This document shows, piece after piece, positions 18,320-23,365 of a stretch of 32,264 nucleotides of DNA. The position numbers were made by a program, and so were the translations under genes. The notes under the pieces are model-generated. The model ran no database searches and was not told the origin of the DNA. It worked only from the letters and a program-made list of their open reading frames with translations. How positions within the stretch are numbered: position 1 is the stretch's first letter; the number at the start of each line of letters is the position of its first letter. Where the stretch lies: positions 1-32,264 of the forward strand of contig CAMYOI010000005.1 in the NCBI GenBank assembly GCA_947259955.1. The letters are read 5' to 3'. Source of the stretch: an uncultured Gammaproteobacteria bacterium. GTDB taxonomy: Bacteria; Pseudomonadota; Gammaproteobacteria; Arenicellales; JAANXG01.

Positions 18320-19357
18320 TTACTTGCCGGAGGCAGCATCGTCCAGGGTGTATGGCATATCCAACAGCTCAACGTGTGCGCCCGATCTTTCGTTCAGCCT
18401 GAGCTCGCCGCCTTCAAGGTATTCGATACGTACCGTGGTCAGGATATCGTAACCTCGATCTGCGGGCACGGCGTTGACCAGCATGCCGATGCTCTGATCC
18501 TTGTCGGATGCGTAGAGCCTATCGCCCGGAGCCGGTAGCGAATCAGCGTCCACTCTCGCGCGGACCATACGGTATTTGGGCTTTCCCAGATATTGCATGC
18601 GGGCGACGATCTCCTGCCCCGGATAACAGCCCTTGTGGAAATCGACGGCCTTTACAAGGTCCATATTCAGGCTGTGCGGAACGAATTTCTCTGTCGTTTG
18701 TTCGAAGATTACGGGCTGGCATTGTTCGACATCTAATGATGCCCATGCCCAGCTGCCTGCCCTGGGCCACGCGCCGAACAGTTCGTGTCGCAAAGGGTCC
18801 AGAGAAGCCGGTGGGCCGATGACCTGATAACGCTCCGGTGTGGCCGGGGTATGGCAGATTATGGTGACTCCCGCTGTCGCCAAGACTCCGTCCGCCTGTT
18901 CAGGAACACCGCCGGTCAATTCCGCCAGGGCCCGGCCGCATTCGCTTCCGACCACCCCCATACTCTCGATGTCATTGCTGTATTCCAATTCGACCTTGGC
19001 ACGCAGAACGAAACGTCGCAGTGTCTCGAGCGAGGAGGGCAGAACGGACTTATTTGCCTGCAGCAGAACTTTGCCGTCGTCGAGGTGCGCCCGGAATATA
19101 CAAACCACTCTGCCTTTGGGTGTGCAATAGCCGGTAAGTTGTGAGTCACCGCCCCCGAGGTTTTGCAGATCGTTGGTTAGTTGGCCGTGCAGGAAAGAAA
19201 TCGCGTCAGGTCCCGCCGCGATGGCAAATCCAAGGTGCGAAAGATCGCAAATGAATCTTTCTTGACGCTGGATGCCGTTCTCCGCGACTTCAGAGCCAAA
19301 ATAACTGTATCCCGTGGGCCCGAATCCCAGACCGTCGTGAAGCGAATTTTCTTTCAC
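18320..19357 (-). CDS. ygfZ: YgfZ, folate-binding iron-sulfur cluster maintenance protein
   Basis: YgfZ (IBA57-related, aminomethyltransferase-like fold) helps assemble or repair certain Fe-S enzymes using tetrahydrofolate. The 345-residue protein has the diagnostic KGCYPGQE motif in DFHKGCYPGQEIVARMQYLG (cysteine conserved) and the N-terminal FLHGQLTNDL segment. Its start is GTG at 19357. It is divergent from the small SDHAF4-like gene and the sdh operon, whose SdhB subunit carries Fe-S clusters. In Pseudomonas, ygfZ is also near sdhE and nadB. Confidence 0.93.
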   Translation of the reverse strand: MKENSLHDGLGFGPTGYSYFGSEVAENGIQRQERFICDLSHLGFAIAAGPDAISFLHGQLTNDLQNLGGGDSQLTGYCTPKGRVVCIFRAHLDDGKVLLQANKSVLPSSLETLRRFVLRAKVELEYSNDIESMGVVGSECGRALAELTGGVPEQADGVLATAGVTIICHTPATPERYQVIGPPASLDPLRHELFGAWPRAGSWAWASLDVEQCQPVIFEQTTEKFVPHSLNMDLVKAVDFHKGCYPGQEIVARMQYLGKPKYRMVRARVDADSLPAPGDRLYASDKDQSIGMLVNAVPADRGYDILTTVRIEYLEGGELRLNERSGAHVELLDMPYTLDDAASGK

Positions 19358-19448: not shown

Positions 19449-19613
19449 ATGATGAAGAAAAGGCTTAAAAATCGAACCGGCGAGGCGCCACCCCCCATGC
19501 AACCCAAGCGGGACTCAAAAATTGGGCGCCAGAAGGAAACCGGCGGGCCCTCGGGCCCAGAACCTACCCGTTACGGCGACTGGGAGCGCAAAGGTCGTTG
19601 TATTGATTTTTGA
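19449..19613 (+). CDS. Small DUF1674 / SDHAF4-like succinate dehydrogenase assembly factor
   Basis: This 54-codon frame runs from ATG 19449 (or 19452) to TGA 19611. Its C-terminus reads GPEPTRYGDWERKGRCIDF, the hallmark of DUF1674, the bacterial counterpart of mitochondrial SDHAF4 (Sdh8), which binds the flavinylated SDH flavoprotein subunit and aids its assembly. The N-terminal half is basic, proline-rich and probably disordered (MMKKRLKNRTGEAPPP). It lies 67 bp before sdhC on the same strand, which supports the role. With no signal peptide it should act in the cytoplasm. Identification of the family is strong; its function in this organism is inferred. No clear promoter is seen in the 91 bp upstream. 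Confidence 0.9.
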   Translation: MMKKRLKNRTGEAPPPMQPKRDSKIGRQKETGGPSGPEPTRYGDWERKGRCIDF

Positions 19614-19680: not shown

Positions 19681-20070
19681 ATGACAAACAGACCCCTATC
19701 ACCTCACCTGCAGATCTACAGACCACAACTGACGTCTATATTGTCCGTCGCCCACCGGGCCTCGGGGATTTTCTTGAGCCTGGGTATTCCGTTTTTCGTT
19801 TACTGGCTCTGGTCACTAGAGTCTGGTCAAGAAGCGTATTCTCATGCCCGGGAATACCTAGGCTCCTTTATCGGGCGTGCGCTGCTGCTGCTCTGGTCTC
19901 TCGCGTTCTACTATCATTTGTGCAATGGAATCCGTCATCTGTTCTGGGATGTCGGCATGGGATTGGAACTGGATGACGCCTATCGCAGCGGCCGGGCGGT
20001 CATCGCCGCCGCGGTTGCGCTGACTCTTTTGACGTGGATAGCGGCATACATGGCAAGGGGGGCAGGCTGA
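19681..20070 (+). CDS. sdhC: Succinate dehydrogenase cytochrome b556 subunit
   Basis: SdhC is one of two membrane anchors of complex II and helps form the heme b and ubiquinone sites. The 129-residue protein has the RPLSPHLQIYR start, the SILSVAHRASG segment (quinone-site Ser and Arg) and YHLCNGIRHLFWD, in which His79 is the likely heme ligand. Three hydrophobic helices are visible. The stop overlaps the sdhD ATG (TGATG). Confidence 0.96.
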   Translation: MTNRPLSPHLQIYRPQLTSILSVAHRASGIFLSLGIPFFVYWLWSLESGQEAYSHAREYLGSFIGRALLLLWSLAFYYHLCNGIRHLFWDVGMGLELDDAYRSGRAVIAAAVALTLLTWIAAYMARGAG

Positions 20071-20450
20071 TGGCGCTCAAGACTCCGCTTGCACGCGTCC
20101 TGGGCCTTGGCTCGGCTAAATCGGGCGTCGATCACTGGTGGTGGCAGCGCATTACGTCAATCGCCCTGATCCCGTTGGGGATCTGGTTCGTCTGGTCTGT
20201 AATTTCGCTGGCCGGCTCGAGCCATGAGGTCGCGTCCGGGTGGCTGCAGTCCCCGCTAAATGCCGCTCTGTTCGTATCGTTTGTACTGGCGGTCTTCTGG
20301 CACGCCGCACTTGGTTTGCAGGTTGTCGTGGAAGACTACGTCCACACAGAGTGGTTAAAAATGGCTGTGCTTATTGCGATCAAACTGTTGGTCGCGTTGT
20401 TTTCGGTAATAGCGGTCCTTTTGGTTCTGCGAATTTTTCTGGGAGTCTAG
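20070..20450 (+). CDS. sdhD: Succinate dehydrogenase membrane anchor subunit
   Basis: SdhD is the second membrane anchor of complex II. I chose the ATG at 20070 overlapping the sdhC stop; the open frame extends back into sdhC at 20034. The 126-residue protein has the [14 protein letters not shown] start typical of the family, three membrane helices, and [15 protein letters not shown], carrying the heme His and the quinone-site Asp-Tyr pair. sdhA begins one base after its stop. Confidence 0.95.
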
Positions 20451-20451
20451 C

Positions 20452-22239
20452 GTGCAAGGAGACTACACGATTATCGACCACACCTACGACGTGGTTGTGG
20501 TAGGTGCGGGCGGGGCAGGTCTGCGATCAGCCTTCGGCACGGCGTCGGCCGGCTTGTCCACGGCCTGCATCACCAAGGTTTTTCCAACCCGGAGCCATAC
20601 GGTCGCCGCACAAGGCGGCATGAGCGCCGCTCTGGGAAATATGGGTGAAGACGACTGGCGCTGGCACATGTATGACACGGTCAAGGGCTCTGACTGGCTC
20701 GGCGATCAGGACGCTATCGAGTACATGTGCCGGGAGGCACCGGCCGCGGTCGTGGAACTCGAACACTACGGTGTCCCGTTCTCCAGAACGGACGAGGGCA
20801 AGATCTACCAGCGCGCCTTTGGTGGTATGACCACACATTTCGGACAAGGCCAGGCCATGCGAACCTGTGCGGCGGCGGATCGCACCGGACATGCGATTTT
20901 ACATACGCTCTACCAGCAGGCACTGAAGCACGCTGCCACCTTCTACATCGAGTATTTCGCGCTGGATCTGATCATGGAAGACGGCGAGTGCCGCGGCGTG
21001 ATGGCCTGGTGCCTGGAAGACGGTACCCTGCACCGTTTCCGCGCGAAGATGACCGTGCTTGCCACGGGTGGATACGGCAGAGCGTATTTTTCCTGCACCT
21101 CGGCACACACCTGTACCGGCGACGGTAATGCCATGGTACTGCGCGCGGGGCTGCCGTTGCAGGATATGGAATTCGTTCAGTTTCATCCGACCGGCATATA
21201 TGGCTCGGGCTGCCTGATAACCGAGGGTGCGCGCGGTGAGGGGGGGTACCTGACCAATTCCAGTGGCGAGAGGTTCATGGAGCGCTACGCGCCCAACGCC
21301 AAAGATCTTGCCTCCCGGGACGTGGTCAGCCGTTCGATGACGCTCGAAATTCGAGACGGGCGTGGCGTCGGGCCGGAATCGGATCATATCCAACTCCACC
21401 TGGAGCATCTCGGGCCGGAATTACTGGCCGAAAGGCTCCCGGGCATATCGGAGTCCGCGAAGATATTCGCTGGAGTAGACGTTACCAGGGACCCCATACC
21501 CGTCATCCCTACCGTTCACTACAACATGGGTGGCATACCAACCAACTTTCAGGGCGAAGTCGTCACACTCAAGGACGGCGACTACGATGCGGTGGTGCCC
21601 GGGCTGATGGCTATCGGGGAGGCCGCGTGTGTGTCAGTGCACGGCGCAAACCGGCTGGGTTCGAATTCTTTGCTGGATCTCATCGTCTTCGGCAGGGCAT
21701 CGGCTCACCGGGCGACCCAGGTCGTGGATCGTGATGCCGCGCAGCGCCCGCTGCCCAAGGATGCCGGGCACAACACCATCGAGCATCTTGACGAACTGCG
21801 CCACGCCAAGGGTGGAAGCACGACAGCGGATATCCGGCTGGAGATGCAAAAAGTAATGCAGAGCAACTGTGCGGTATTTCGTACCGGCGAAGTACTGCAG
21901 GAAGGCGTCAAAAAAATGTCGCAGGTCCGCGAACGCTACGGCGACGTAAACGTAAGCGACAGAAGTATGATTTGGAATACGGATCTGGTCGAAACCCTGG
22001 AACTGGAAAACCTGCTTGGTCAAGCGACGGTCACCATTCACTCCGCCATAAACCGTCAGGAAAGCCGGGGTGCGCATGCTAGGGAGGACTATCCGGACCG
22101 GGACGATGAGCACTGGATGAAACATACGCTTGCCTGGCTTCGGGAAGGCGATACCCCCAACCTGGATTATCGGCCGGTACACGATTTTACCCTGGGAGAC
22201 GAAATCGACCCGATACCTCCCAAGGCCCGCGTGTACTAG
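20452..22239 (+). CDS. sdhA: Succinate dehydrogenase flavoprotein subunit
   Basis: SdhA oxidises succinate to fumarate with covalently bound FAD. The 595-residue protein has a Rossmann motif [11 protein letters not shown] (about residues 15-25) and the flavinylated His49 in [13 protein letters not shown]. The active-site [21 protein letters not shown] and [14 protein letters not shown] segments are present. It starts at GTG. Flavinylation is expected to need SdhE, encoded downstream, and the SDHAF4-like protein upstream probably binds this subunit. Confidence 0.98.
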
Positions 22240-22310: not shown

Positions 22311-23090
22311 ATGGCTGAATTTACACTGCCGAAAAATTCGAAGATCGTCAAAGGTAGAACTTATTCGAGCCCGACCCAGACCGGCAACCTGAAGACCTTT
22401 GAAATCTACAGATGGGATCCGGATGGCGGCGAAAATCCCCGACTGGACAGCTATCAGATAGACCTGGATGCCTCCGGGCCGATGGTCCTGGATGCGCTGA
22501 TCAGGATTAAAAACGATTCGGACGCCACGCTGACCTTTCGAAGATCGTGCCGGGAAGGGATTTGCGGTTCATGTGCAATGAATATCGACGGCACCAATAC
22601 CCTGGCATGCACCAAGCCGATCGACGAAATCAAGGGAAAAGTCAAGATTTATCCGCTGCCCCACATGCCGGTAGTGAAGGACCTGGTTCCTGATCTGACG
22701 AATTTCTATGCCCAGTATGCCGCCATCAAGCCCTGGCTGCAGACGAAGACGCCGCCACCTCCAGATCGTGAGCGATTGCAGTCGAAAGACGAAAGGGCGG
22801 AACTCGACGGACTGTACGAGTGCATAATGTGTGCGAGTTGTTCGACGAGCTGCCCCAGCTACTGGTGGAACAGCGACCGGTATCTCGGTCCCGCGGCCCT
22901 GCTGCAGGCATACCGTTGGATCTCCGACAGCCGGGACGAAGTGACGGGGGATCGTCTGGATGAACTCGATGACCCATTCCGGCTGTATCGTTGTCACACC
23001 ATCATGAACTGCACGAAGACCTGTCCCAAGGGTTTGAACCCGGCCAAGGCCATTTCAGAAATCAAAAAACTCCTCGTCGCCAGGCGCTGA
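22311..23090 (+). CDS. sdhB: Succinate dehydrogenase iron-sulfur subunit
   Basis: SdhB passes electrons from FAD to quinone through three clusters. The 259-residue protein has the [2Fe-2S] cysteines in [16 protein letters not shown] plus a later Cys, and ferredoxin-like cysteine clusters in [16 protein letters not shown] and [17 protein letters not shown] for the [4Fe-4S] and [3Fe-4S] centres. It has a somewhat extended N-terminus before the usual start of homology. It is 71 bp downstream of sdhA; I see no feature in that gap. Confidence 0.97.
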
Positions 23091-23107: not shown

Positions 23108-23365
23108 GTGGCAAATGCGGACAGTTTCAAATCGAGACTGCGCTGGCATTGCCGCCGGGGCACGAAGGAGCTGGACGTGCTGCTTGGTGGATTTCTGGAG
23201 CGGCGGTTCGACGAACTGGACGAATCGCACCAGACGGCCTTCTCGAAACTGGTAGAACAACAGGACCCGGCAATCGCAGACTGGATCTGGGGCAGGACAC
23301 CCATTCCCGATGGTGAAATCGGCAGAATCATAGCGATGATCCGGAAAGACGGGGGCCTCGATTAG
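23108..23365 (+). CDS. sdhE: SdhE, FAD assembly factor for succinate dehydrogenase
   Basis: SdhE (SDHAF2/Sdh5 homologue) promotes covalent attachment of FAD to SdhA. The GTG at 23108, 17 bp after the sdhB stop, gives an 85-residue protein of normal size with the conserved RGTKELD motif (family RGxxE) near residue 17. The open frame extends back into sdhB but that part has no homology. Its stop overlaps the convergent nadB stop by four bases. Being last in the sdh operon fits its role. Confidence 0.94.
   Translation: MANADSFKSRLRWHCRRGTKELDVLLGGFLERRFDELDESHQTAFSKLVEQQDPAIADWIWGRTPIPDGEIGRIIAMIRKDGGLD

Follow-up and report, generated by a model that had tools for sequence, protein, structure and literature searches.

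A 54-codon SDHAF4-family gene at the head of a gammaproteobacterial sdh operon with a mitochondrial-type SdhA

The closest described relatives of the gene examined here are the complex II assembly factors SDHAF4 of human and Sdh8 of yeast, which belong to the same family (Pfam DUF1674, PF07896). Human SDHAF4 binds the SDHA-SDHAF2 complex and displaces SDHAF2, and its terminal residues D107-F108 occupy the dicarboxylate site of SDHA, where they contact H407 and R451; with D107/F108 mutants SDHAF2 is not released, and the E84N mutation abolishes detectable binding (PMC10784507). SDHAF4 homologues in alpha- and gammaproteobacteria have already been noted (PMC10784507), and a review describes bacterial SDHAF4 as limited in number and as missing from the usual model organisms (PMC10238741). 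In the mainly open-access literature searched, no description of operon linkage of bacterial SDHAF4 was found. The second relevant factor is SdhE (SDHAF2, Sdh5; PF03937), which assists assembly of the same flavoprotein but acts at FAD attachment and has no sequence kinship to SDHAF4. In bacteria, SdhA and SdhE come apart readily without a further factor, whereas the human complex is stable (PMC10238741).

The window, by which we mean the whole stretch of 32,264 nucleotides analysed, contains a short open reading frame, here called sdhAF4, immediately before sdhC (Table 1). The sequence-only reading had described it as an unannotated 54-codon SDHAF4-like gene, and both the frame and its identity were confirmed. 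The first ATG lies at 19449, a second ATG follows at 19452, and the TGA occupies 19611-19613, directly after the residues D53-F54; the C-terminal end of the product reads GPEPTRYGDWERKGRCIDF. When the protein was searched against Pfam, residues 8-54 matched DUF1674 with 57 bits (E=2.5e-15), well above the curated cut-off of 23.5 bits. In the PDB sequence set, it matched human SDHAF4 as solved in the SDHA-AF2-AF4 and SDHA-AF4 structures (8DYD, 8DYE; E=4.5e-12), with 23 of the 25 C-terminal residues identical, and the Rhodobacter protein RhR2 (2K5K; E=3.1e-8). NCBIfam models gave no match to the product, and the source assembly has no DUF1674 gene other than sdhAF4.

Table 1. Genes of the sdh locus in the window, with the evidence for each assignment
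Feature	Positions	Strand	Evidence
sdhAF4 (SDHAF4/DUF1674 protein, 54 aa)	19449..19613	+	profile and PDB sequence matches
sdhC, succinate dehydrogenase cytochrome b556 subunit	19681..20070	+	TIGR02970
sdhD, hydrophobic membrane anchor	20070..20450	+	TIGR02968
sdhA, flavoprotein subunit, mitochondrial/alphaproteobacterial type	20452..22239	+	TIGR01816 983 bits, mitochondrial SDHA scores, tree
sdhB, iron-sulfur subunit	22311..23090	+	NCBIfam
sdhE (SDHAF2/Sdh5 family), FAD assembly factor	about 23108..23365, start codon approximate	+	PF03937 78.6 bits
ygfZ/IBA57-like gene (a probable ygfZ, which is the counterpart of IBA57 in bacteria), GCV_T fold	18320..19357	-	PF01571 E=6.8e-8

Compared with the human and yeast proteins, the window protein has only 54 residues, lacks a mitochondrial targeting region and is encoded in the operon of its likely client, with a function assigned by analogy. 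The residues on which the human protein depends are nevertheless conserved: Glu30 is equivalent to human E84 and Asp53-Phe54 to D107-F108, and the GGPxGPEPTRYGDWE core is present together with this glutamate. Among 90 gammaproteobacterial proteins, the exact Asp-Phe C-terminus was found in all 90, G49 is invariant, and GDWE, R41, P39 and G36 are nearly so. Over the last 25 codons, the 89 homologous genes differ from the window gene 315, 375 and 1331 times at codon positions 1, 2 and 3, respectively, and this skew identifies sdhAF4 as a conserved protein. A chance open reading frame is ruled out by this pattern along with the Pfam and human SDHAF4 matches. The exact start codon is uncertain, because the N-terminus is variable among relatives, even inside the order, two ATGs stand side by side, and no clear ribosome-binding site lies 5' of 19449; TTG 19437 and ATG 19497 are other candidate starts. 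A promoter scan of the + strand found nothing.

The position of the gene also agreed with what had been read from the sequence: sdhAF4 stands at the head of the operon, 67 nt from its stop codon to sdhC, followed on the same strand by sdhC, sdhD, sdhA and sdhB, and sdhE closes the operon. Genes for homologues of two assembly factors of one flavoprotein thus lie in a single operon. With the probable ygfZ beside it, homologues of three factors linked to complex II biogenesis cluster at this locus. A ygfZ/IBA57-like gene was seen within 3 kb upstream in 53 of the 90 SDHAF4 loci, divergent every time. Downstream of the operon lies nadB on the minus strand, and the genes beyond it are read as rpoE and rseAB.

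How common this arrangement is was seen in a survey of the class, in which DUF1674 scored above cut-off in 90 of 369 sampled genomes. In the 89 carriers other than the source, whose surroundings were examined, the gene adjoins sdhC in 85, where it has the same orientation and heads the sdhCDAB(E) genes; the order sdhAF4-then-sdhC is plain in 83 of these linked loci, and stop-to-stop frames overlap in the other two. The same layout occurs in named records, for example Frateuria sp. STR12, Wenzhouxiangella limi, Marinicella sediminis and Woeseiaceae. The frame is thus conserved in related genomes, as the earlier proposal needed, but a single gammaproteobacterial copy is not special, since such homologues are both published and common. 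The value suggested for this copy in tracing the origin of the family is restricted, because only about 50 residues can be aligned. In four class genomes SDHAF4 lies away from sdh (L050 and L066, of family f41 with 1.1 Mb genomes, L073 and L088). In E. coli K-12 no such gene precedes sdhC, E. coli gave no match in the control DUF1674 search, and a pattern search for overlooked copies in SDHAF4-negative loci found none. SdhE is far wider (316 of 369 sampled class genomes), and it is present in 89 of 90 genomes with SDHAF4 versus 227 of 279 without (Fisher p=3e-6, kinship ignored). The lone SDHAF4 genome without SdhE is G340, an assembly of 71% completeness in which the contig stops just after sdhB.

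The presence of SDHAF4 is tied to the type of SdhA. The window SdhA scored up to 940 bits against mitochondrial SDHA chains versus 692 bits against E. coli SdhA, and it keeps the flavin-anchoring His49 and the active-site His356 and Arg401. In the SdhA tree two types were resolved: the clade of E. coli SdhA holds 33 gammaproteobacterial rows, and all SDHAF4 carriers fall in the other clade, together with alphaproteobacteria. SDHAF4 accompanies mitochondrial-type SdhA in 85 of 110 gammaproteobacterial rows and E. coli-type SdhA in 0 of 33, a comparison in which kinship is ignored and only top-scoring SdhA proteins represent the SDHAF4-negative genomes. A count of 16 changes in SDHAF4 presence on this tree was set aside, because alphaproteobacterial rows were scored by local absence only. 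About 25 sampled genomes have mitochondrial-type SdhA and no detectable SDHAF4, and SdhE is present in about 21 of these; SDHAF4 is therefore not strictly required with that SdhA. In the tree, the SdhA of the source order is placed beside that of alphaproteobacteria (support 95 for the 41-row set), within a class that also has an E. coli-type SdhA, which may reflect ancient paralogy or operon transfer. Because of this placement, alphaproteobacterial contamination of the assembly was considered; it is unlikely, as the order AF4-sdhCDAB-sdhE-nadB is also found in three genomes of the same order and as the genes across the whole 32 kb contig are arranged in what reads as a typical gammaproteobacterial manner.

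We consider it highly probable, by analogy with the human protein, that sdhAF4 encodes a bacterial SDHAF4 which is made from its client's own operon and acts in a hand-off from SdhE to SDHAF4 on SdhA. This reading draws on the homology, the operon position, the invariant C-terminus, the conserved contact residues and the co-occurrence with SdhE observed here, and the binding, the order of events and the displacement of SdhE are carried over from the human system (PMC10784507). First, SdhE would most likely bind newly made SdhA and promote covalent FAD attachment. Second, SDHAF4 would bind SdhA-SdhE, and its C-terminal Asp-Phe would enter the dicarboxylate site at SdhA His356/Arg401, where the plug may shield the reactive flavin. 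SDHAF4 would then displace SdhE and hold SdhA until SdhB docks. The same hand-off is the best explanation because the equivalents E30, D53 and F54, as well as His49, His356 and Arg401 of SdhA, are all kept.

A different emphasis, in which SDHAF4 binds and plugs SdhA chiefly as a redox or stress factor that shields free flavinylated SdhA from autoxidation, more than by displacing SdhE, seems to us unlikely. In its favour, all 90 proteins keep the Asp-Phe plug without variation, the plug has been proposed to limit solvent exposure of FAD and ROS (PMC10784507), and bacterial SdhA-SdhE falls apart readily unaided (PMC10238741); however, SDHAF4 almost never occurs without SdhE (89 of 90), which fits the hand-off better.

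The copies outside the class bear on whether DUF1674 serves some wider function that has nothing to do with complex II. In a phylum draw DUF1674 was found in 134 of 398 genomes, and 36 outside-class loci from 34 genomes (two genomes twice), taken to be alphaproteobacterial, were examined. Most of these copies are divergent to htpX and/or rsmB, none of the 36 is at the head of an sdh operon, and one is separated from sdhCDAB by about 5 kb. Such surroundings would suit a broader role, but we regard it as very improbable, given that the human member was solved in complex with SDHA, that 85 of 89 class genomes have the gene at the sdh head, and that it occurs only in genomes with mitochondrial-type SdhA. 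RhR2 and the alphaproteobacterial members share the family and the DF ending with the window protein, which differs from the outside-class copies in its place at the sdh operon and, from most of them, in ending GRCIDF. Most outside-class proteins end in G-I/L-x-x-DF, with R/K-C-x-DF exceptions at L270, L292, L295, L298, L306 and L315. Human SDHAF4 and nearly all class members end in G-R/K-C-x-DF, and this shared ending, which most outside-class copies lack, is only suggestive as an evolutionary signal. Finally, we reject as negligible the idea that what matters is the translation of the frame and not its product, as in a leader peptide or upstream open reading frame with a regulatory role for the sdh operon: the frame is short and close upstream of sdhC, but its amino acids are conserved while synonymous sites drift, its C-terminus is invariant, four class genomes have it away from sdh, and homologues outside the class are unlinked.

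In conclusion, the family was already known, and our survey adds that gammaproteobacterial SDHAF4 is common, operon-linked and tied to the type of SdhA. It is present in about a quarter of the sampled class genomes, where it nearly always belongs to the sdh operon and is accompanied by SdhE, which corrects the description of bacterial SDHAF4 as limited in number. The survey yields a testable rule, namely that SDHAF4 accompanies mitochondrial-type SdhA, and carriers such as Frateuria, Wenzhouxiangella and Marinicella can be genetic or natural bacterial models for complex II assembly. It is plausible that mitochondrial-type SdhA grips SdhE more tightly and hence needs a release factor. As a tentative proposal, to which we give slightly less than an even chance, the conserved sdhAF4-CDAB-E operon may mark those gammaproteobacteria whose complex II is of the mitochondrial type and is assembled through an SDHAF2-to-SDHAF4 hand-off like that of mitochondria; SDHAF4 would have co-evolved with this SdhE-gripping SdhA and would never have been needed by the E. 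coli type. If this is true, the mitochondrial hand-off would be older than mitochondria.
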